Below are positions 5,663-37,341 of a DNA stretch of 64,000 nt, piece by piece. The notes beneath the pieces were generated by a model. That model did not search any database, was not told the origin of the DNA, and saw nothing but the letters and a program-made list of their open reading frames with translations. The translations under genes were made by a program, and so were the position numbers. How positions within the stretch are numbered: the first letter of the stretch is position 1; every line of letters begins with the position of its first letter. Origin of the DNA: Pseudomonas taiwanensis DSM 21245 (GTDB lineage: Bacteria; Pseudomonadota; Gammaproteobacteria; Pseudomonadales; Pseudomonadaceae); the NCBI RefSeq assembly GCF_000425785.1, contig NZ_KE384450.1:517873-581872 (forward strand). Reading direction: 5' to 3'.

Positions 5663-6082
5663 TCAGGCGGCCGGGACCAGGCCGTAAGCGGCCAGTTGCT
5701 CGACGCTGCCACGGTGCTGGATCAAGCGCGGGTCGTTCAGCGGCAAGCGCTGGCCCAGCTCGCTTTCGAGAATGGCCTGCAGCTTGAGGTTGTCGACCTT
5801 GCCGTCGGGCGTAACGGCTTGGCGCAGTTTCTCCGGCGCGACCTGGGCCGTGGTGCCGCCGGGGTAATAGATGGCACCGGTGGCGAAGTCCACGCCGAAG
5901 GCGATCAGGCCAGGAATGACATAGAACAGGATACCGATGGCATCGAGCGCGGCGACCACAGGGTCGATCTTGCCTTCGATCTGGCCGCGACGGTCAGGGT
6001 AGAACAGCGTGCCACAGGCCGTCAGCTGGGTCAGCAGGGTGGCGATGAGTACGCTGCCAATGACGCGGGAAGGGATACGCAT
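5663..6082 (-). CDS. Small lipoprotein of unknown function
   Basis: A 139-aa protein with a lipoprotein signal: a positively charged start, a hydrophobic stretch and lipobox LTAC-G with Cys23. The mature part has a hydrophobic segment (IGILFYVIPGLIAFGVDFA, about residues 49-67) and a C-terminal region ESELGQRLPLNDPRLIQ. Similar Pseudomonas proteins are, as I recall, sometimes mislabelled polyribonucleotide nucleotidyltransferase; nothing here supports that. It is followed after 25 bp by fieF on the same strand. An outer-membrane location is inferred because no Asp follows the Cys. Confidence 0.75.
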   Translation of the reverse strand: MRIPSRVIGSVLIATLLTQLTACGTLFYPDRRGQIEGKIDPVVAALDAIGILFYVIPGLIAFGVDFATGAIYYPGGTTAQVAPEKLRQAVTPDGKVDNLKLQAILESELGQRLPLNDPRLIQHRGSVEQLAAYGLVPAA

Positions 6083-27262: not shown

Positions 27263-29131
27263 TCAATGATTGCCGTGTTGGCTAAGCCGACTCTCGAAGT
27301 ATTGCGCCGTCTCTTTGTCGGTGCAGTACAGGTAGCAACCCTTCATCCCGCGTGTCATCAGGGTTCGGTACGTATTTTTGATGATCAGGTCTGTTTCACT
27401 TTTCGCGAGGGTAGGTTGCTCTTTCATCATTTTTTTCCAGCCGCGAATCGATTTATCGTGCTTGTCGCGCTCATCCGGGGATGTCACTACCTGACCGTCA
27501 CGTACGACTAGATCTGGCCCGATAATCACGCCGATGTAGTCGACTTCCAAACCTTGGCAGGTATGAATGCAGCCAACCTGCTCGATGGAGTTCTCAGCGA
27601 TGATCCATAGGCTGCCATCTTGATCCAGGTTCCATTGGCGTTTGTAGTCACCAATGACGATATCAGCAGCGGTGGGGTCTTTCTTGCTCAACCAAGGCCA
27701 GCAATAGCCCGCGACCACACGAGCTTTGTTTCCGTGGTTTTTCTCGTTGATTGCGTCATGCATCGCCTGAGGTGAGTCGAACACCTTAAACTCGTACTCT
27801 TGGGTCTCAAGCGTCGGATTTGCCGTCGAGCGAATGCCTAGCGTGTCATCCAGCCATGCCAGGTAACCGTCAGAACCACTGCAGCGAAACTGCGAAGACA
27901 GCACGTGTTCTTCAACCACAGCACCCTTGGCTTCTGCAAAGGCGCGTATCGCCTGCTTGCTGCCGATATCGCTCAAGGTTACACGCTGGTCCTCATCAAT
28001 AAAGAAAATGGAGCATTTCGTTGAGTCAATCAGCTCCTTGATCTGGTTCTCCCCAAGGTTTCCATACAGCCCGCTTTTCTCATTCAGTCGGTGAGCTTCG
28101 TCCACGATGAGCGCATCGAATGTGTTGGGCTCAGTGTCGATGAATGCCCCAGAGCCTGAAAAGAAATTCGAGAAATGGCTGCGCTTGATGGTGCCAACCA
28201 GTTTGCTTTCGTAGACCTTGCGAGGGGCGGCATTCTTGGAGACGTATTTGCTCATCAGCTTCAATTCGGTGAGCTTCACCAGCAGATTGATAGCCAGAAC
28301 AGTTTTTCCGGTGCCCGGTCCACCTTCGATGATCATCACCTTGGGTGCTTGGTCCGAAGCCTCGCTTGCCGCCGCAAGCGCCGACTCAAAAATTGCTTTC
28401 TGATCGTCAATCAATACGAACTCGGGTTTGCCTTTCATCAACCCCGCGAGGGCTTCGGCTAGCGCCTTGGATGGGCGAATTTTTCCTTCGGACAGCTCGT
28501 AAAGAACCTCTTTGTTGTCGCCATGACTTATATGCTTTTTCAGAAAGGTTCTGAGTTTACTGAGCTCTTCCGGGCCTTTCAGAAACAGCGGAGCCTTGCT
28601 GATGTGGGGCTCATAGTGGGCTGAATCTATGACACCGTCGCTGACGTAGTTATGGAGGTAGGCGCACGGACGGATTTCGATGCTTTTATTATACACCGCC
28701 TCGTTGAAGCCTTCCAGCAGCGCTGCATAGGACCATACCTGATAGGACGGGTGAATGGTCTCAATGAGGCCGCCACCCAACGCCGTTTTGACGATGGCGT
28801 CTTTGGTTGTGGCGTTGGCCTTGCTCCATTGCTTCAGCTCGATGAGTACGGCCTTCTTGGCCTGGTTTTCGTCGCGACCGGTGAGTAGAAAGTCGATTCG
28901 TTTCGACGACTGTGGAATGTGCAATTCAATGGCCAGACCTGCATCGCTCGGGAGACCCTCATCTCTAAGGACCTTGGCCATGTACGTCAGAGACCCTTGC
29001 CACGATCTGATTTCCGAGGAGCCAACGTTCTTGCCGGTAGCTTCCTTGTAATGCCTGAGGATCACCTCCTCAATGTCATCGTTATCGTTGTCTTTAAGAA
29101 ATTGCTGTTTGGTCGCAGCGTAAACGATCAC
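27263..29131 (-). CDS. DUF2075 (Schlafen-like) helicase with nuclease-like N-terminus
   Basis: A 622-aa protein of the DUF2075 superfamily-1-type helicase group. The helicase core begins with Walker A EGGPGTGKTVLAINLL near residue 271, then ALIVDEAHRL near 342, FFIDEDQRV near 378, SSQFRCSGSDGYLAWL, CQGLEVDYIGVIIG and LMTRGMKGCYLY. The N-terminal 200 residues contain RIDFLLTG and, about 18 residues later, LIELKQW, the D...ExK spacing of PD-(D/E)XK nucleases. It is probably a nucleic-acid-processing enzyme. The MazG-like gene ends 24 bp upstream on the same strand, so the two form an operon. Such pairs recur in accessory regions; a defence role is inferred. Confidence 0.85.
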   Translation of the reverse strand: MIVYAATKQQFLKDNDNDDIEEVILRHYKEATGKNVGSSEIRSWQGSLTYMAKVLRDEGLPSDAGLAIELHIPQSSKRIDFLLTGRDENQAKKAVLIELKQWSKANATTKDAIVKTALGGGLIETIHPSYQVWSYAALLEGFNEAVYNKSIEIRPCAYLHNYVSDGVIDSAHYEPHISKAPLFLKGPEELSKLRTFLKKHISHGDNKEVLYELSEGKIRPSKALAEALAGLMKGKPEFVLIDDQKAIFESALAAASEASDQAPKVMIIEGGPGTGKTVLAINLLVKLTELKLMSKYVSKNAAPRKVYESKLVGTIKRSHFSNFFSGSGAFIDTEPNTFDALIVDEAHRLNEKSGLYGNLGENQIKELIDSTKCSIFFIDEDQRVTLSDIGSKQAIRAFAEAKGAVVEEHVLSSQFRCSGSDGYLAWLDDTLGIRSTANPTLETQEYEFKVFDSPQAMHDAINEKNHGNKARVVAGYCWPWLSKKDPTAADIVIGDYKRQWNLDQDGSLWIIAENSIEQVGCIHTCQGLEVDYIGVIIGPDLVVRDGQVVTSPDERDKHDKSIRGWKKMMKEQPTLAKSETDLIIKNTYRTLMTRGMKGCYLYCTDKETAQYFESRLSQHGNH

Positions 29132-29155
29132 GGGTTGTCCTTAGGTGCGTGTGGG

Positions 29156-29539
29156 TCAGAGTCGGTCGTACTTTTTGCTGCTGCTTCTGGCTTTATCTAC
29201 GGGGTACTTCTGACCATTCGAGGCGAGTTTCTGTGTCACCGCCTCGTTGAGGTCAATGCCAAGTACGCTGCTCAGGCGAACCAGGTACATCAATACGTCC
29301 GCCAATTCGTCCTTAACGGCTTGGCCGATTTCGGGATCTGTTGCGGCGGAGATCGAATCGGCATCGCTCATCCATTGGAAAATCTCGCACAGCTCGCCTA
29401 CCTCGCCAGTGAGAGCCAGGATGAGATTTTTGGGGGAGTGGAATTGCTGCCAGTCGCGATCATCTGCGAACCGCTGGAGGGATGCGGCGAGCTTCACTAC
29501 GTCAACCATGGGTGTGGATGAGCTGTCTGAGTCACTCAC
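29156..29539 (-). CDS. MazG-like nucleotide pyrophosphohydrolase
   Basis: A 127-aa all-helical NTP pyrophosphatase of the MazG/RS21-C6 type, hydrolysing (d)NTPs to (d)NMP and PPi. The Mg-binding signature is complete: EVGE at 46-49 and ExxD at 78-81 (KDELADVLMYLVRLS). NLILALTGEVGELCEIFQW is typical of the short dCTPase-like group. The start is taken as GTG 29539 with AAGAGA 8 bases upstream; the open frame extends to 29731 without homology. It is first gene of the operon with the DUF2075 helicase. Nucleotide depletion or sanitation during infection is a possible role, not shown. Confidence 0.83.
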   Translation of the reverse strand: MSDSDSSSTPMVDVVKLAASLQRFADDRDWQQFHSPKNLILALTGEVGELCEIFQWMSDADSISAATDPEIGQAVKDELADVLMYLVRLSSVLGIDLNEAVTQKLASNGQKYPVDKARSSSKKYDRL

Positions 29540-29934
29540 GGGGCTATCTCTTGGGCATCGTTGAGAAAATGTGTAGGAAATACGCCTGAGATTGTAAGAG
29601 TTTTTGCTGCTTTCGCATTTTTTTTGTGTCTTGTCTCGCCTGTTTGCTGTTAGCAAGACTGCTAGCCATAGTTCGCTATCCGCATCGAGCGAGGCGGCCA
29701 TTCGTCCTCGCGAGATGGATGGATGAGCCAATCAAACTGATCGGCAGCAAACGCCCCAAATTTATGGTTGGTAGCGGGATGCTTTCGGCCCTCACCGGCC
29801 CATGTCGAAGGGCCGCTGACGGCCAAAAGCGGACGATTGAAGCGCCACCGGTTCAGCAGCCGTTTGGAATGTCTGCTTTAGCTAGATCTCTGTGCTCTGC
29901 GAAAGGCAGCTTGGGTCGTCTGCTGCCCTCCAGT
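29540..29934. other. Intergenic region inside the island
   Basis: This 395-bp gap lies between the start of the MazG-like gene and the end of the membrane-protein gene. The part near 29570-29640 is A/T-rich with T-runs and probably holds the MazG promoter and a terminator for the gene upstream. 29740-29900 is a GC-richer patch with GGCCGCTGACGGCCAAAAGC, which looks like decayed mobile-element sequence. The plus-strand open frame across it has no recognisable content. Confidence 0.45.
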
Positions 29935-31104
29935 TCAAGTTGCAGATTTTCGAGATTCGGTTTTAGTTAAAATTTTTGCTGCCTTCATCTGAGATTTTCG
30001 TGGCATCTGAAGCGTTTTGCTACTTTTCGTTAAAACACAATAAGCCGATTTGTTGGGCCAATCTTTAAGCTCGGTTTTTACCAGTTTTGCCGGGCAAAGC
30101 AGTAGCACCTCCCCAAAAGAAAAAAGTGGAAATGCGGAGACCAGAGGATGTGTGCGTAATGTCTCTACTGAATCCCAAACCTCAGTATCGAAGTCTTCTG
30201 TAGCGTAATTCTCGGTCAGCAAGAATTTGGCTACCATTGGGTCGCGGACCTTCATCAGGGAAGCCGCTGAGTACACAATGGTCAGAGTGCCTCCCGGTGC
30301 CCCCCCAATGATGACTACCGAGACCACGGATGCCGTCGCTAAGCATAGTGATATTCGTTTAAAAAGATCGGCTTTACTGGTATAGAATACGACTACTGGA
30401 ATCAGCGTCATACTGGCGAAAATAATAGATATCAGCATCAACTTAGTAATGGCCTCAGGCGTATCTTCACCTGAGTAGGCCTTAAGAATGAGGCTCACGG
30501 GTAGCACCGTCGAAATAACCGTGCCGATCAGGCTTAATGCCAAGATAATCAAAAAGAAGACGCGAGTCACCTTGCTTTTTAAGCTTCCCGCTAGGTCTAT
30601 GGTTGTGCAATAGTCCACAGCTTCTCTGAACGTCTGGCTTTTCCGAAGAGCCAAAATTGTTAAACACCCATACAAGACTACGCAAATTAGTTTATAACCG
30701 TCAGCGATCGTTACGCCTTTGAAAATCATTACCATCAGCGCTGCAATTCCAAACAGTACTGGGAAAACTAGAACTATTACCAAGTCGGCTTGAAGATTAG
30801 GACTGTCATTGAAGAGCGAGACAGATAGCCCAAATAACATGCTCGTTGTCATGAGCACAAGAAAATAGACCGCAACCAATAGCGAGATTACTGAAAGCCA
30901 AAGTACCAATGCTGACTTAGCTTCAATTGCTGAAGCCATCAAATCCGGACGACCGATGGCTGTCGTATAGGCCGACAGTGTATAGAATCCCAAAGTCGTC
31001 CCAATACCACCTATAATCATACTGAGTGGTGCCCAATATGTAAAAATCCGTTTAAATGTCCTTTTTATTTCCTCTTGAAAGGTTAAAGGCTTCTTTAGGT
31101 TCAT
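29935..31104 (-). CDS. Polytopic membrane protein of unknown function
   Basis: A 389-aa hydrophobic protein that I do not recognise. About eight membrane segments can be read, among them WAPLSMIIGGIGTTLGFYTL, LWLSVISLLVAVYFLVLM, LVIVLVFPVLFGIAALMVMI, the FFLIILALSLIGTVISTVL stretch and LMLISIIFASMTLIPVVVFY. The C-terminal 100 residues are soluble and end in a Lys/Ser-rich tail. AAGGAA lies 7 bases before ATG 31104. Base composition and codon use are clearly more AT-rich than the chromosome, so it was acquired. It could be an effector, an immunity protein or a transporter; there is no evidence to choose. Confidence 0.75.
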   Translation of the reverse strand: MNLKKPLTFQEEIKRTFKRIFTYWAPLSMIIGGIGTTLGFYTLSAYTTAIGRPDLMASAIEAKSALVLWLSVISLLVAVYFLVLMTTSMLFGLSVSLFNDSPNLQADLVIVLVFPVLFGIAALMVMIFKGVTIADGYKLICVVLYGCLTILALRKSQTFREAVDYCTTIDLAGSLKSKVTRVFFLIILALSLIGTVISTVLPVSLILKAYSGEDTPEAITKLMLISIIFASMTLIPVVVFYTSKADLFKRISLCLATASVVSVVIIGGAPGGTLTIVYSAASLMKVRDPMVAKFLLTENYATEDFDTEVWDSVETLRTHPLVSAFPLFSFGEVLLLCPAKLVKTELKDWPNKSAYCVLTKSSKTLQMPRKSQMKAAKILTKTESRKSAT

Positions 31105-31389: not shown

Positions 31390-32880
31390 TCATACGCTCG
31401 CCGCAAGTCGCTCGTATTCACCATCCAGGTAAGTGTCGACGGCTTTGATGTCGAGCCTTCCGTCCTGGTACCAGGAGTTGAGTTCCTTGAGTGCAAGGGT
31501 ACCGAAGCGCGCCCAGGCAATAAGATTCGAGCGCAACATGAACTGGATCATGTCGCCGCCCGATCGAATCGCCGCATCGGCGCCATCCACTACGCAAAGC
31601 GTGCCGTGCGCCACCAGTAACATCCGCTGAAGTTCGGGGTTGGTGGACGATGGAATGCACTGAGCCCATTCCTTCTCGTGATAGAAGCGCTGTTTCACGA
31701 TCCACATCACTCGGGTCAACATTTCGCTAAGCATCACCGGAATAGCCATTGCTAGGCCATGACGTAGGTCGTAGCCCTTTTCGAATACTTGGACGGCGAT
31801 CGTGGCGAAGGTTTGCCGATGTTGCCCAAACTCGCCAACGTTGATGAATTGCAATAGCGAGTAGAACGGAATCGGAATACCCGCCCCCCGTGTCTTCGCG
31901 CCAGAGGAACCGGCCACATCCGAGAACAAGTGCCCCAGCCAGTTCATGAAACCGCAGAACAGCTTGGCCACCAGGTTCGATCCCTTGAGTTCGAAGGTAT
32001 CGGTATTGACACTGATGATTCGGCCGCCATCGACGAAATGTGCGGTACTGATGAATTGATCGAGTATCGAGAAGAACAACCCGACAAGGTCCGGAGAATG
32101 CGCCAGGCTCTTGATGTGGTGGTTGCGTGTACTCATCTTGAACAGGCCGCTGACATCGCCCCCGTGCCGATGGTCGTAGTTGACCTTGTACTGCCTTTCA
32201 AGGAATCCAATGGCACTGGTTACCGGGTCACTGTCTTTGTTGGGACCTTGCCAACCGTTCCAAGAAGCAAACTTATGCACCGCTTTATCGGTCATGTCGT
32301 CCGTAAAGTGGGTGAGCGCCCCCTTGCCGGGGAGGCCGACGAATAGAACGTCCACTAGGCCGCCGATCAAGCCGCAGGTGCCGGCGATCATGTAGTCGTA
32401 TTTGTCGCAGTGAGCGCCCTTGTACGAGAACTCGTCGCGTATGCGCTTTTCCAGCGCAATGCGTTGGCTTGCGCTCATCAGGTCGCGGAACGGATCGTGG
32501 CCAAACTCGATCCGCTGCCGCTGGGCATAGGCAGTGACTTTGTCGAGGTAACCACTCCAGCCGCTGTTGCCATTCATGTCGATGAAGTCGAGGCTTGGCA
32601 ACGGCGTGGCGACGCTCACGATGTTTTCCTGTACGACATAGCTGCTCTCGACAAGCACCGCATCGTCGTCATCCACCTCGAAAATCACCTGGTTCCTTTC
32701 GACCAGCGTTTGAGCTTCGAACAGCATCAGTTCGAGCTGCTTGCGCCTCTGTGACTGCGTAACCTGCAGGTTTTGCAGTACACCATCGACCAGTCCCAAG
32801 TGGTTTTGCGCGGAGTTCAACTGGTGCTTTTGCACCAGCATCGCCTGGGCCTGTTCGGTCAACGCATCCTTCTTGCTCAT
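31390..32880 (-). CDS. Island protein with YdjM-like His/Asp motifs, function unknown
   Basis: A 496-aa protein without a family I can name with confidence. Residues 1-70 are helical and Gln-rich (coiled coil). A hydrophobic Gly-rich segment IAGTCGLIGGLVDVLFVGLP lies at about 160-185. Later come RNHHIKSLAHSPDLVGLFFS (about 250-270) and NWLGHLFSDVAGSSGAKTRG (about 310-330). The order HH...H...D / GHxxxD after a G-rich helix is reminiscent of YdjM-type membrane-bound metal-dependent hydrolases; this is pattern resemblance only. Its ATG overlaps the stop of the 558-aa gene by four bases, so the two are translationally coupled and probably act together. Confidence 0.7.
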   Translation of the reverse strand: MSKKDALTEQAQAMLVQKHQLNSAQNHLGLVDGVLQNLQVTQSQRRKQLELMLFEAQTLVERNQVIFEVDDDDAVLVESSYVVQENIVSVATPLPSLDFIDMNGNSGWSGYLDKVTAYAQRQRIEFGHDPFRDLMSASQRIALEKRIRDEFSYKGAHCDKYDYMIAGTCGLIGGLVDVLFVGLPGKGALTHFTDDMTDKAVHKFASWNGWQGPNKDSDPVTSAIGFLERQYKVNYDHRHGGDVSGLFKMSTRNHHIKSLAHSPDLVGLFFSILDQFISTAHFVDGGRIISVNTDTFELKGSNLVAKLFCGFMNWLGHLFSDVAGSSGAKTRGAGIPIPFYSLLQFINVGEFGQHRQTFATIAVQVFEKGYDLRHGLAMAIPVMLSEMLTRVMWIVKQRFYHEKEWAQCIPSSTNPELQRMLLVAHGTLCVVDGADAAIRSGGDMIQFMLRSNLIAWARFGTLALKELNSWYQDGRLDIKAVDTYLDGEYERLAASV

Positions 32881-34553
32881 GAGAACAGGCCAAGCAGCTT
32901 GCCCTTGGCCTTGTCTGCGATATCGGCGGCGCCGCCGACAAGTACATCGCTGACGTTGAAATAACCGACCGCTTCGAAAGCTCGGGCAAGGTTCTCCAGT
33001 GCCTTCGGCGAAACGCCTGGTTTGATCGCGAGCTTGAACGTCTCGATCTGCTGGCCATCTTTCTCCTGGGAGAACGAACGCTCTTCGTAGAACGACCTGA
33101 TGAAGTCGTAGAGCTCTGCCTTAGTAGGCTCTTTGATGAGCGTCTTTAGCTTGGCGTCGTCGAGGAAACGAGCGCAGCGCAGTTTGGTCGCGCTGCTTTG
33201 GGTCGCTTCGCACTTGTTGGTCAGCACTGTACCGGCGCCGGTCATCTGCCCCATCATGGCGGTAAGGCGCTGAATCATTTGACCTTGCTCGCCATGCTCG
33301 GCCAGGGCCTGGTTCAGCCGATCGGTGATGTGGTTGAGGTCTTGCATCAGCAGCGAGATGGTGGCCTGGGTCTGCTTGATGACCTCGATCAGCATCAGTT
33401 CGCGTCGCTTCGAGCGCGTGAGCTCATCTGCACCCGTCAGTTTGCGCATGCCTGCGTATGCGCCCACACCGAGCAACACGGCGACACCAATTCCCGTGGT
33501 CATGCCGGACAGGCCGAGTATACCGCCCATGCCCAGAGTCGCTAGGCCGGACGTAAGCCCGGCCGCGGACATGCCCACCACCGAACCCGAGAGATACACC
33601 GCGGCCAATGGAGTGCCGACAGCCGCGGCCTTCGCCGAAAGAAGTTTCAGTGCGCTGACGATTTGGTCATCGGTGACGTCATCCTTCAGCATGCTGTGGT
33701 CGTTACGGATGGCGGTGACAGCGAGATCGATCTCGTCATCGGTGACCTGCAAGAGCGCGCGATTTTTTTGCAGGAAGCCGAAGGTCTCCAGCGAGCTGCC
33801 GCCAGTGGAGAAGTACAGGTTGATCAAGTCTTTGGTCAGCGAGATGTGCAGCGGCCTGATCTGCCCCCGTGGGCAATGCCTGTCCAGCTCCGCGAGCAGC
33901 GTTTCTAGCGGTGCCACCTGGTTGAAACCGGTCATGTAGGAGCGCATAGTGAGGCGCGACTCGGGTTCCAACTCCAGCCGCGTCATCAACAGCAGGATCT
34001 CCGCGAACTCTTTTTCATCGATGACCTCGTCGTTGTCGTAGGCCATGTTCACGATGACTTTGAGGTAAGCCACCTTGACCGCTTCGTCCATCTCTTCGAG
34101 CGGGATGAGCTGCTTTTCGTCCTGGAAATCGGTGAAGTTTTCGATCACGCCCTGCAGTACGGATGCGAGCGCCGCATAGTCGCAATCACTCAGGTCCTTG
34201 ATGACCAGTTGGCTATTGTCCTTGCGCTCGATGATCAGGGCGTGTTCGAGCTTGTCCATGCTTCCGGTGTGCATCTGGGTGTACTTGGCGCTGCGGATCC
34301 CCTCGTAGGGGAAATGGATCGGGTCGGCAAATCCGGAGCGGTAGATCACTTGCTCGCCAGTGAACAACAGGCCGTCCTTTGCAGTGCCGAACAGGGTGTT
34401 GTCGAACAACGCCACGACATTTCCAGGCAACCCGTTGTATGCGAATGCCTTGAGTGCGTTGTTCAGCTTTTTTTCGTCGATCCCCGGAGCAACGGAAACA
34501 TTCTTGGAAGAGATAGAGCCGAGGTTTTCGCGGAGATAGGCGCTAACGCTCAT
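32877..34553 (-). CDS. PH-like / TerB-like / glycine-zipper protein, function unknown
   Basis: A 558-aa multidomain protein. Residues about 48-90 (FDNTLFGTAKDGLLFTGEQV, then IHFPYEGIRSAKY) look like a bacterial PH-like domain. Residues about 155-250 resemble a TerB-like helical domain (NMAYDNDEVIDEKEFAEILL). A long Ala/Gly-rich hydrophobic stretch at about 311-375 (SGLATLGMGGILGLSGMTTG) suggests a membrane-inserting glycine zipper, followed by a coiled coil (about 385-440). The N- and C-termini carry related segments: APGIDEKKLNNALKAF and KPGVSPKALENLARAF. Residues 1-3 of the next gene overlap its stop. An effector or sensor role is inference. Confidence 0.72.
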   Translation of the reverse strand: MSVSAYLRENLGSISSKNVSVAPGIDEKKLNNALKAFAYNGLPGNVVALFDNTLFGTAKDGLLFTGEQVIYRSGFADPIHFPYEGIRSAKYTQMHTGSMDKLEHALIIERKDNSQLVIKDLSDCDYAALASVLQGVIENFTDFQDEKQLIPLEEMDEAVKVAYLKVIVNMAYDNDEVIDEKEFAEILLLMTRLELEPESRLTMRSYMTGFNQVAPLETLLAELDRHCPRGQIRPLHISLTKDLINLYFSTGGSSLETFGFLQKNRALLQVTDDEIDLAVTAIRNDHSMLKDDVTDDQIVSALKLLSAKAAAVGTPLAAVYLSGSVVGMSAAGLTSGLATLGMGGILGLSGMTTGIGVAVLLGVGAYAGMRKLTGADELTRSKRRELMLIEVIKQTQATISLLMQDLNHITDRLNQALAEHGEQGQMIQRLTAMMGQMTGAGTVLTNKCEATQSSATKLRCARFLDDAKLKTLIKEPTKAELYDFIRSFYEERSFSQEKDGQQIETFKLAIKPGVSPKALENLARAFEAVGYFNVSDVLVGGAADIADKAKGKLLGLFS

Positions 34554-34653: not shown

Positions 34654-34773
34654 TCACGATTGGGCCTCCTTGCGTGCCGAATGGGCGCGCTTTAGCTCAG
34701 AATATTCGCGGTACAACTCGTAGCTCTTCTTGATCAGCACCACGAGCCCAATGGCTGCCAAGAGATTTTTCAT
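34654..34773 (-). CDS. 39-residue single-pass membrane peptide
   Basis: A short reading frame translating to MKNLLAAIGLVVLIKKSYEL, then a charged helical tail ending KRAHSARKEAQS. The first 14 residues are hydrophobic, followed by KK, as in small membrane-anchored peptides. The start has a strong ribosome binding site, AAAGGAA, 6 bases before the ATG. It lies 100 bp upstream of the 558-aa gene and about 105 bp downstream of a promoter overlapping a WYL-type operator, so it is the first gene of that operon. No homologue comes to mind. It could be a toxin-like peptide, a membrane adaptor or a regulator. Confidence 0.7.
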   Translation of the reverse strand: MKNLLAAIGLVVLIKKSYELYREYSELKRAHSARKEAQS

Positions 34774-35168
34774 GGCTTGTTCCTTTCGGGATTTGATTTG
34801 TTGGATTTGACGCAGCGCCCTGACTCGATGAGGAAAACTGTGTCAGGACAGGGGCACGATATGTAGGCTTCCAGCGCGTATCTAGAGTGTTTACATGTAC
34901 AGGTAAACAATCCATGCAGGTTGTGGGGGCTGAGGCACGGGTGCATACCTGGGGTAGTTGGAAAGGGGCTGGTAGTTCGATAGGGGATATTCGAGCCTGG
35001 GGCCGGGAGGGAAGGGCGCTTGCCCGTGGACTACTCGATGTGGAGCTTCGACAAGTGAGTCAACGGGTGTCGAAGCGCCGCACATCTCTAGCACCATGGT
35101 GCGTCGCAAACTTTATATACGCCTGCACACTGGCCGCGATTCAACAGTCGTATCTCCTGCGACAGGGC
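34774..35168. other. Regulatory region of the island operon
   Basis: This 395-bp gap lies between the 39-residue gene and the end of the WYL regulator gene. It holds the operator-promoter at 34879-34910 and a leader of about 100 nt with a CCTGAC/GTCAGG stem. 34916-35168 has no recognisable gene; it contains a T/A-rich patch near 35108-35180 just beyond the regulator stop. Confidence 0.55.
34879..34910 (-). promoter_or_regulatory. Operator 1 and promoter of the 39-aa/558-aa/496-aa operon
   Basis: On the minus strand: operator TTGTTTACCTGTACATGTAA with arms TTGTTTAC (complement of 34903-34910) and a 7/8-matching partner (34887-34894). Inside it lies a -35-like TTTACC (34902-34907), then exactly 17 bases, then a -10-like TAGATA (34879-34884). 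Operator 2 upstream of the WYL regulator has the same first 15 bases and the same geometry. Confidence 0.7.
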
Positions 35169-36041
35169 TTATATATAGAGCCAAGGGGTCAATGTCTCCA
35201 GGTTCTTTACGACGATCTGCTGCGCTGAAGCCTTGGGCTCTAATTTTTTCGGATCGATTTGGTAGCGCTGAAGCACGTAACCCACGAGCGCGCACCGCGT
35301 CGAAATGACCAGTTCGCCATCGTCCATACCGAAGTCGACTTCGATGATCGCCTTCTGGTCAGGCTTCAGTCGCGAATCTGGCTCGATGATCACATCGATG
35401 AAGGTGTTCCATTCCTCGTCATCGCTGATCAGCTTCTCGCTCATACGCTCGAATTCCGGTTCCCCGCGGAATCTGCTCAACACGAAATCCCGATACTTGC
35501 GGTTCTTCTCGCAGTAGGCCCGTACATGCCAGCGCATGCCTGTGTAGATCAAGGTATGCGGCGAGATTAGTCGCGTCTCCGGAACCGGGTTTGCCAACGA
35601 CACGTATTCAACGGCAATCACCTCTCCATTACGGCATGCCTTAAGCAGCGGTCTCAGCACCTCTGGACGAATTGTACGGTCCGGTACCTCCAGCACCTTG
35701 GTGTGTGCATAGGCCAGCGCCAGTCCCTCCACATGCGGTGCTCGCGAGTGGGTCTGGTTCAGCAGTTGTAGGTAAGCATTGGCACTGTCGTCGATGAACA
35801 GCGGCTTGAAGTGCTTACTCGGCACATAGCCCTTCAGTTGCTTGTCATATGTAAGGTTTTGAGGCGCATGTTCGGCGATGTAGGTATTGATGTCCTTGGA
35901 CGCCTGCTGGCGGCTGATGCCGAAGCTCTGCATCAGATGGCCTGTGGTCAGGCGGCCTTCCCACCAAGCCACGGTCTCGATCAAACGATAGCGAAGTGCC
36001 AGGTCCCAGCGGATCTGATTGATCTCTTGAGTGCGTTTCAT
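35169..36041 (-). CDS. WYL-domain transcriptional regulator (BrxR/CapW-like)
   Basis: A 290-aa regulator with N-terminal winged helix-turn-helix (WEGRLTTGHLMQSFGISRQQ, residues 28-47, then ASKDINTYI). The WYL domain is central (RNGEVIAVEYVSLANP, ISPHTLIYTGMRWHVRAYCE, FVLSRFRG; residues about 135-195) and a C-terminal WCX-like region follows. Size and layout match BrxR and CapW, repressors of BREX and CBASS defence loci whose WYL domain may sense a nucleic-acid or nucleotide signal. Two matching operators (34887-34910 and 36062-36085) flank the gene; the second begins 21 bp from its start, implying autoregulation. The ligand is unknown. Confidence 0.87.
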   Translation of the reverse strand: MKRTQEINQIRWDLALRYRLIETVAWWEGRLTTGHLMQSFGISRQQASKDINTYIAEHAPQNLTYDKQLKGYVPSKHFKPLFIDDSANAYLQLLNQTHSRAPHVEGLALAYAHTKVLEVPDRTIRPEVLRPLLKACRNGEVIAVEYVSLANPVPETRLISPHTLIYTGMRWHVRAYCEKNRKYRDFVLSRFRGEPEFERMSEKLISDDEEWNTFIDVIIEPDSRLKPDQKAIIEVDFGMDDGELVISTRCALVGYVLQRYQIDPKKLEPKASAQQIVVKNLETLTPWLYI

Positions 36042-36061
36042 GGGCCGTCCATGTGCGTGAT

Positions 36062-36093
36062 TTGTTTACCTGTACAAGTCTACAATCTATACG
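36062..36093 (+). promoter_or_regulatory. Operator 2 and promoter between the WYL regulator and the 85-aa gene
   Basis: TTGTTTAC (36062-36069), 8-base spacer CTGTACAA, GTCTACAA (36078-36085): 6 of 8 arm positions pair. The first 15 bases equal those of operator 1. On the plus strand TTTACC (36065-36070) stands 17 bases before TATACG (36088-36093), the same promoter geometry as operator 1, here pointing at the 85-aa gene. Confidence 0.68.
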
Positions 36094-36157
36094 TGTAAAA
36101 AATCACTACATATCCTCTGGCTGTCTTCGGAACAAATTACCTAGCGAAAGGATGAGC

Positions 36158-36415
36158 ATGACTACGATGGATGTGATTTCGATAGCGGCGCTGGTGATGA
36201 TGGTGGTGATTGCTGTACTGCTGTTGGCCCACTACCTGAAGCTGCAGAAGATGTGGGCGGTGATCGTCAATTGTCGTACGAGCCTGCGTTGGGCGCGTAT
36301 TCATGAGGCGGAGAATAGGGAACTGCGTTCGGCGTTGCGGGCGGAGAAAGCGCATGTGGATCAGTTGCAGAGGAAGGTAGCTTTAATGAACGCGGTAGGG
36401 CCAGAGGGCAAATGA
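36158..36415 (+). CDS. Small membrane/coiled-coil protein divergent from the WYL regulator
   Basis: An 85-aa protein starting MTTMDVISIAALVMMVVIAV, one membrane helix of about 22 residues. A basic segment (HYLKLQKMWAVIVNCRTSLR) and a predicted coiled coil (RIHEAENRELRSALRAEKAH) follow. ATG 36158 has AAAGG 6 bases upstream; ATG 36152 would leave no spacing. The promoter overlapping operator 2 points at it, so it should be co-controlled with the 39-aa/558-aa/496-aa operon. No homologue recognised; a membrane-tethered partner of that system is inference. Confidence 0.65.
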   Translation: MTTMDVISIAALVMMVVIAVLLLAHYLKLQKMWAVIVNCRTSLRWARIHEAENRELRSALRAEKAHVDQLQRKVALMNAVGPEGK

Positions 36416-36472: not shown

Positions 36473-36802
36473 ATGAAAACCACTTCGACCAGCAGCCATC
36501 AGACTTGGAACAAAGGAAAATTGGTCGGGCGAAAAGCACCGCTCCGACTGAAAGACAGCTGGGCCATTCCGGTAAGGCTTCAAATCGCGGAGGAAACTCG
36601 AGATTTAGCTCTTTTCTATCTGGCCATCGACAGCAAGCTACGAGCATGTGATCTGACCAAGCTTCGCGTACGCGACGTTGCTCATGGGGAGCACGTGTCA
36701 TCGCTAGCGATAGTGATGCAGCAGAAAACCCAGCGGCCTGTGCAGTTTGCCAGACCGCTGTGGCTTGATTTCAAACCGAAAAATCGTCGGAAAACGCACT
36801 GA
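36473..36802 (+). pseudogene. Truncated tyrosine-type integrase
   Basis: A 109-aa fragment whose first 90 residues (WNKGKLVGRKAPLRLKDSWA, LALFYLAIDSKLRACDLTKL, MQQKTQRPVQF) match, from memory, the start of a roughly 200-aa tyrosine recombinase common in Pseudomonas. After PVQF the sequence changes to an unrelated 19-residue tail and stops. The catalytic C-terminal half, with the HxxR and Tyr motifs, is missing. A good GGAGGA precedes the ATG. It lies 150 bp from the ssrA end, where an island integrase is expected, so it is probably the decayed integrase of this island. Confidence 0.8.
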
Positions 36803-36949: not shown

Positions 36950-37341
36950 TGGTGGAGCCGGGGGGATTTGAACCCCCGTCCGCCAGTACTCCGCTGTCGG
37001 TACTACATGCTTAGCCGTGTCTACTGAGTTAATCCGCAGCCGCCCGACGGGCAGGGTGCTTTGGACGAGTTGGGTAAGTTTTAGTCGCTTTGCCCCCAAC
37101 GTGCTACACGACGATCCTGTTCTGTATGACAATCATTTCGGGTTTACAGGCATCCCCTGATGATTGCTGGAGCCGAAGCTACCAGGAGAGCGGGCTCAGC
37201 TGCTTACGCAGCGAGAGCGTAGCCCTCGTAGTTTTCGTCATTGGCAACTATAGAAAGTTGCAACAGTGGATTTACGAGTTCTGTTACCAACTCGGCATGC
37301 ACCTAGAGTTTCGCTACCGGCGTCGAATCCTGATCGGCCCC
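36950..37341 (-). ncRNA. ssrA: Transfer-messenger RNA (tmRNA)
   Basis: The 392-nt gene for the ribosome-rescue RNA that works with SmpB. The 5' end GGGGCCGATCAGGATTCGAC and the 3' end TTCAAATCCCCCCGGCTCCA-CCA form the Ala-tRNA-like acceptor and T arm, with CCA encoded. The tag frame (complement of 37204-37245) reads ANDENYEGYALAA then TAA, beginning at the resume codon GCC. Pseudoknot-rich G/C stretches lie between. It is the integration target of the island to its 3' side; the end is intact. Confidence 0.97.

Follow-up and report, generated by a model that had tools for sequence, protein, structure and literature searches.

Two palindromic sites most likely place a BrxR-type WYL regulator in control of itself, a small membrane protein and a Bunzi operon in Pseudomonas taiwanensis

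Results

Two putative operator sites flank a WYL regulator gene

In a 64,000-nucleotide stretch of the Pseudomonas taiwanensis DSM 21245 genome (the window), a palindromic site occurs twice, and the two copies most likely let a WYL regulator encoded between them control itself, a small membrane protein and a Bunzi operon. Bunzi is an anti-phage system. The exact 15-mer TTGTTTACCTGTACA has two copies in the window, at 34896-34910 (minus strand) and 36062-36076 (plus strand). With up to three mismatches, five matches were found in the window against 0.37 expected, and 0 of 100 shuffles reached five; four of the five represent both strands of the two palindromes. Operator 1 (TGTTTACCTGTACATGTAAACA; 34909-34888, minus strand), a near-perfect palindrome of 22 bp, lies upstream of the Bunzi operon, and operator 2 (TGTTTACCTGTACAAGTCTACA; 36063-36084, plus strand), an imperfect one of the same length, lies between the WYL gene and the gene that we call D85. 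The initial annotation had described the 15-mer as present twice, in opposite orientation, 1.15 kb apart and within palindromes, as the pattern scan of the window bears out. It had also called for a scan of the rest of the genome. The symmetric pattern GTTTACNTGTACANGTAAAC, with up to three mismatches, matched these two places only in the whole 5.4-Mb assembly, and the same pattern written backwards, our control, gave one match per strand. The 17-base spacing from TTTACC to TAGATA or TATACG was likewise found as described at both sites, and the gap between site 2 and the WYL start (36041), about 20 bp, agrees with the earlier figure. A third element common to both sites, CTACATATC, had been overlooked; it lies 17 bases beyond TAGATA or TATACG and includes TATCGT (34861-34856, minus strand) at site 1 and TATCCT (36111-36116, plus strand) at site 2.

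The gene between the sites (35169-36041, minus strand) encodes a WYL protein of 290 residues (Pfam WYL, E 5.8e-13). Its best solved relative is BrxR (PDB 7t8k, E 1.5e-64), aligned over residues 12-267 of 290, and the CapW structures 7tb6 and 7tb5 rank next (E 4e-39 to 1.8e-40). The homology extends over the wHTH, the WYL domain and most of the C-terminal part, as is expected of a BrxR/CapW-type protein. Two DNA-contact motifs of the Acinetobacter type are present, SRQQ (FGISRQQASKDI) and KGY (LKGYVPSKHF); both make DNA contacts in the Acinetobacter BrxR crystal, according to the available part of that report (PMC9122589). Also as in regulators of this type, a palindromic site is found upstream of the window's own wyl gene and a second one before defence genes, site 1 preceding S39-bnzAB; 11 such cargo sites were found overall.

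The genes downstream of site 1 comprise S39, bnzA and bnzB. S39 (34654-34773, minus strand), an ORF of 39 residues with one membrane helix predicted by eye, directly precedes bnzA in five genomes. It had no meaningful match in Pfam, PHROGs or NCBIfam, and its codon changes are synonymous-biased in the two homologues compared (13 versus 7 and 15 versus 6 codons). The products of bnzA (558 residues; 32877-34553, minus strand) and bnzB (496 residues; 31390-32880, minus strand) match the PADLOC Bunzi profiles PDLC03833 (E 9.6e-203) and PDLC03834 (E 5.1e-209) over their full length, and the two genes are adjacent, as in Bunzi.

Other genes were noted on both sides of the locus. Beyond bnzB (27263-31104, minus strand) lie genes for a 389-residue membrane protein (29935-31104), a MazG-like protein (29156-29731, minus strand) and a Schlafen group 3 helicase-type protein (27263-29131, minus strand). 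Since distant relatives of the 389-residue protein (25-26%) adjoin WYL at four other loci (L107, L120, L188 and L189), it may be further cargo. On the opposite side, a tmRNA gene (36950-37341) and an integrase-like remnant (36473-36802; phrog_216, E 5e-4) lie beside the locus, which suggests that an island was inserted beside this tmRNA gene long ago.

The site is conserved at WYL loci

Across 398 genomes of the genus, 129 had a WYL match at E 1e-20. From the table of these matches we picked by hand 92 genomes with a close WYL, excluding 37 with only weak matches, and neighbourhoods were counted at 100 of 101 selected loci; the locus outside the counts (G389) has the same register as those counted. 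At 88 of the 100 loci, at least 13 of 20 consensus positions were matched at -42 to -45 of the WYL ATG, and the same consensus test at seven other offsets gave 0, 0, 0, 0, 2, 0 and 0 loci of 100. A matrix search that included displaced sites detected the site at 97 of the 100 loci, 87 near WYL and 10 displaced. At nine of the displaced loci the site lies 91-97 bp from the D85 start and WYL is 245-1,120 bp away; the tenth call (L063) is weak, 90 bp from WYL and without D85. As the distance to D85 is kept while WYL has shifted, the site is conserved as a partner of D85 and not of wyl. Furthermore, with 10 of 97 sites displaced from WYL, autoregulation is not universal.

The half-operator TTTACCTGTAYAN5ACA occurs in 60 of the 398 genomes, and its backwards control occurs in none among the matches listed. 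Of these 60 genomes, 58 fall within the close-WYL set of 92 (Fisher p 8e-43, kinship ignored); the other 34 of that set contain no exact half-operator. The two remaining motif genomes (G076 and G250) and one extra site in G226 show a different element, without the -35/-10 register, that adjoins a common gene cluster. Among viral contigs only two WYL loci were found, both truncated at the WYL gene, with the upstream side absent. The earlier prediction of one regulator tied to both arms and to itself is upheld by the site before WYL at 88 or 97 of the 100 loci, by the 58 of 60 co-occurrences and by the sites before Bunzi in other genomes that are described below.

The operator stands in a fixed register with a putative promoter

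Offsets were counted from the first T of TTTACC at 104 distinct sites, 83 adjoining WYL, 10 displaced and 11 at cargo. Only matrix matches above 14 were kept; the opposite-strand palindrome partners at L033, L109, L114, L122 and L102 (the last also below 14) were left out, as were the weaker matches L041, L089 and L094 (+8448). TANNNT was found at +46 in 103 of the 104 sites (83/83 adjoining WYL, 10/10 displaced and 10/11 cargo), and at +47 in the eleventh cargo site. T.GA.. was found at +23 in 93 sites (73/83, 9/10 and 11/11, respectively). In contrast, TANNNT at +23, where the initial annotation had placed the -10, was found in 0 of 104, and in diverged loci the +23 hexamer is TCGACA, a good -35. 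At eight loci (L098, L099, L102, L109, L114, L119, L122 and L125) the cargo site precedes a RecB-like nuclease-helicase operon; these eight have the same register with an unrelated spacer sequence (TGGACG-N17-TAGGGT). The distance from the operator to the putative -10 is constant while the distance to the D85 start varies. The 104 sites are not independent, since they represent roughly three promoter lineages, and the register is partly common ancestry.

The initial annotation had read TTTACC as a -35 inside the operator and TAGATA or TATACG as the -10, which would have implied plain steric repression of both promoters. This assignment, which the 17-bp spacing at both sites and the agreement of TTTACC with TTGACA at 4/6 positions had recommended, is probably wrong, and we consider the simple steric scheme built on it very unlikely. 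The pair was rejected on register, and its mean promoter pair score (5.81) equals the mean of column-shuffled alignments (5.80). The +23/+46 pair scores 6.60, but the shuffles reach a maximum of 6.73, so this pair is not outstanding and the score alone proves nothing for it. On register, we re-read TAGATA (34879-34884, minus strand; +23) as the -35 of the Bunzi promoter and propose TATCGT (34856-34861, minus strand; +46), 17 bp past it, as the -10. For the D85 promoter, TATACG (36088-36093, plus strand; +23), a copy that itself misfits T.GA.., is re-read as the -35, and TATCCT (+46) is the proposed -10. A -35 at +23 and a -10 at +46 would put the operator directly upstream of the -35. If +46 is the -10, the operator would adjoin the -35 in a fixed register, spanning about -60 to -39 and centred at about -49.5. 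TAGATT (36084-36089, minus strand; -48 to -43 from the ATG; consensus TAGAAT) is a weak candidate for the -10 of the WYL gene itself. This hexamer abuts operator 2, which would then lie over the WYL start point, an arrangement that suggests autorepression of wyl.

Such a constant register is seen more typically with activators. The same regulon could have the opposite sign, WYL activating D85 and the cargo from just upstream of the -35 and repressing its own gene, a scheme like that of the WYL activator DriD, whose own gene has a bidirectional promoter; we regard this as a serious possibility, somewhat short of an even one. The conserved hexamers at +46 and +23 would suit it, the 11 cargo sites (eight with the unrelated spacer) included, as would the constancy of the operator-to-(-10) distance while the D85 start moves. 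Nevertheless, most of the 104 sites are homologous and their register is partly ancestral, and DriD is centred on the -35 whereas the window operator would be centred at -49.5. Moreover, in the portions of the literature available, the BrxR/CapW-family members of tested sign all repress, and Shield II remains functional from its native promoter when its WYL is missing (PMC10270631).

The site precedes Bunzi and unrelated cargo in other genomes

BnzA is present in 3 of the 398 genomes (the window genome, G064 and G166), all with WYL and the motif. In G064 the site lies before S39-bnzA, next to a WYL remnant of 71 residues; about 12 kb away there is an intact WYL, likewise with a site of its own. 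In G166 an RmuC gene is followed by S39-bnzA; the RmuC gene is divergent from WYL, and the site lies between the two. A wider scan of genome contigs for Bunzi gave six loci (L173-L178). At L174 the entire arrangement is repeated (D85, WYL at 95%, both sites, S39, bnzA and bnzB). In L173, a metagenome bin, one contig carries the site, S39 and bnzAB and another carries a WYL at 72% together with a site of its own, which suggests that the regulator acts in trans, if the bin is pure. At L175 and L176 BnzA is at 63-64% and S39 is missing; the motif is absent genome-wide, and one genome has a 36% WYL and the other no WYL. No such operator was found near bnz at L177 and L178, which are contig pieces with a distant Bunzi. 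The motif had been expected upstream of orthologous operons, and it is present for 5 of 5 Bunzi operons with S39 (in G166, upstream of the RmuC gene at the head of the operon); it is absent in L175 and L176, where Bunzi is more distant and has neither S39 nor a close WYL. A search of the open, non-subscription literature gave no paper on WYL together with Bunzi.

These arrangements bear on whether the motif belongs to the WYL protein at all. It might be bound by another protein, or be the relic of a duplication, the WYL gene merely travelling along. The long composite element common to both window sites is as in a duplicated promoter, and the operator of the Acinetobacter BREX relative has a different arm arrangement. 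We nonetheless hold this explanation to be highly improbable: the motif is confined to WYL genomes, and it is kept before unrelated cargo and where Bunzi and WYL occupy different contigs.

Further copies of the operator-promoter cassette were noted. At L184 (about 18028) a second, broken WYL copy lies behind an intact-looking cassette; its genome, G057, has two complete copies besides. A plasmid of Pseudomonas veronii (L163) carries a second cassette about 3 kb from WYL (at 5943, minus strand), directed at an unnamed gene. At L098, -1829 from WYL, a cassette lies 90 bp before an S39-like ORF (57%), and no bnzA follows this ORF in the stretch examined.

D85 resembles the N-terminal part of RmuC/Shield-like proteins

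D85 (36158-36415, plus strand), divergent from WYL, encodes a single-TM coiled-coil protein of 85 residues with no meaningful match in Pfam, PHROGs, NCBIfam or PADLOC; a match to Hsp33 was rejected (18.2 bits versus a cut-off of 244). At 97 loci, the divergent position is occupied by small single-TM proteins with the motif ENRELRSALRAEKAHVEQLQRKL (the D85 family) in 74 cases, RmuC in 3 (L053, L071 and L078), an ADP-ribosylglycohydrolase directly in 3, a zinc-ribbon membrane protein in 8 and other genes in 9. An ADP-ribosylglycohydrolase gene was also found on the D85 side of the D85 locus at 22 loci. Over their first 86 residues, the RmuC proteins are matched by the D85 profile (E 6e-10 to 1.4e-14; hhalign probability 99.1). 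A generic TM/coiled-coil likeness was discarded as the source of this match, since shuffled decoys gave at most 15.7 bits versus 31.5 to 46.4 bits for the three RmuC proteins. The RmuC nuclease domain of the Shield protein ShdA is missing from D85, which stops after the coiled coil and has no RmuC match; sharing only the N-terminal module, D85 is therefore not classed as ShdA. A plasmid search with the RmuC protein returned mostly RmuC-annotated entries that match the conserved region, none covering 80% of the query, and no Shield neighbour was found in the annotation of the P. aeruginosa and P. luteola plasmid loci.

D85 was found in 77 of the 398 genomes, and a close WYL was present in 73 of these. 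In the other four, D85 lies beside a different WYL protein (L202 and L207), beside a WYL remnant (L208), or is found in G238. Among nine additional D85 regions, five without a nearby WYL carry the cassette (L203, L204, L206, L209 and L210) and four are without it. D85-type genes at L202, L205 and L207 adjoin another WYL protein (cluster 5), without the cassette; thus, D85 may accompany WYL regulators more widely.

Discussion

We propose that the BrxR-type WYL protein, whose gene lies between the two sites, uses both of them as operators. Each site would form a composite promoter, in which the operator, with its TTTACC half, is followed after 17 bp by a weak -35 (T.GAC) and after a further 17 bp by a -10 (TAnnnT). 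By analogy with BrxR and CapW, a WYL dimer would bind both operators. At site 2 it would overlap or adjoin the start of wyl and thereby limit its own synthesis, a position that fits autorepression, and it would also control the divergent D85; at site 1 it would control S39-bnzA-bnzB. In related genomes this site is also found upstream of other genes, which points to a small regulon, possibly acting in trans, into which cargo is exchanged. Finally, the cargo would be repressed in the uninfected cell, and an infection-made signal bound in the WYL pocket would lift the repression.

To this last reading, a WYL regulon with its cargo repressed, we give about an even chance. The palindromes are unique in the genome by pattern, the site has a fixed place at WYL and co-occurs with it, and the protein has the SRQQ and KGY motifs. 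Precedents for repression, as far as the available text of each report goes, are the R-BOXes of BrxR (PMC9122601), CapW (PMC9122588) and the BrxR homologue of Shield II (PMC10270631). Against it, the operator would lie upstream of the -35 and not, as in CapW and E. fergusonii BrxR, on the -10 or the start. We divide our confidence between repression and, to a lesser degree, activation because family members repress whereas the DriD-like fixed geometry suits activation. A bolder proposal, which we advance tentatively and think rather doubtful, is that this WYL clade forms a plug-in regulon: a rigid operator-promoter cassette would recruit unrelated island cargo (Bunzi, RmuC/Shield-like, RecB-like operon), the regulator would activate the cargo and repress itself, and D85, a dedicated small membrane protein, would be co-expressed, being either a derivative or an ancestor of the Shield nuclease membrane anchor.

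BrxR/CapW regulators are known as guards of single defence systems. Here, one clade appears to share a rigid cassette among cargo genes that are not homologous and, in one genome bin, among genes on separate contigs. The cassette can serve as a search string for co-regulated, perhaps uncharacterised, defence genes, and the sign of WYL control becomes directly testable at promoters of known geometry. Two unlisted families of small membrane proteins, D85 and S39, travel with the regulon.

One of the closest parallels is BrxR of the BREX islands of Acinetobacter and E. fergusonii, a WYL protein with SRQQ and KGY, a palindrome before its own gene and a second site before the defence operon. These two sites, R-BOX1 and R-BOX2, precede the regulator and the defence genes in the accessible part of one account (PMC9122601). 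The cargo of BrxR is BREX, whereas in the window it is Bunzi, with a divergent D85 gene in addition. The operators also differ: that of the window is an even palindrome of 22 bp with the TTTACC arms inward, whereas the Acinetobacter BREX relative has ATACCGTAAA-N5-TTTACTGTAT, with ATACCGTAAAAAATGTTTACTGTAT at -74 from its start, similar words with the arms turned the other way. Plain equivalence with the Acinetobacter operator was therefore rejected: the half-site words are alike but the arm arrangement is different. In the text available on that protein (PMC9122589), the site spans -51 to -27, so that its centre is at -39 and that of the window operator at about -49.5, and loss of BrxR has little effect on restriction.

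CapW of CBASS is likewise a self-controlling WYL repressor at a divergent promoter; it represses in both directions from sites on the -10 (PMC9122588), whereas the window operator would lie upstream of the -35 of the cargo promoter. The WYL protein of Shield II resembles ours in genus and defence cargo, and RmuC is divergent in three of our loci, a likeness drawn from the published description. The excerpt of that description states that the upstream BrxR homologue of the P. aeruginosa system "appeared to repress" protection and that Shield II is active from its native promoter in its absence (PMC10270631); the window locus differs in its cargo, Bunzi. DriD of Caulobacter has, in the available portion of its report, one fixed site-to-(-10) distance, a weak -35 and a bidirectional promoter at its own gene (PMC12340889). 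The same operator-to-(-10) distance recurs here in 103 of 104 distinct sites. DriD is centred on the -35, as the window operator would not be if +46 is the -10, and it controls DNA-damage genes; its closeness to the window WYL is one of promoter layout and is not known by sequence. BrxR/CapW-type WYL regulators with operators at their own and at defence genes are thus of a known kind, and the new features here are the Bunzi cargo, the rigid cassette common to cargo of unrelated types, and the D85 family with its link to RmuC/Shield-like proteins.
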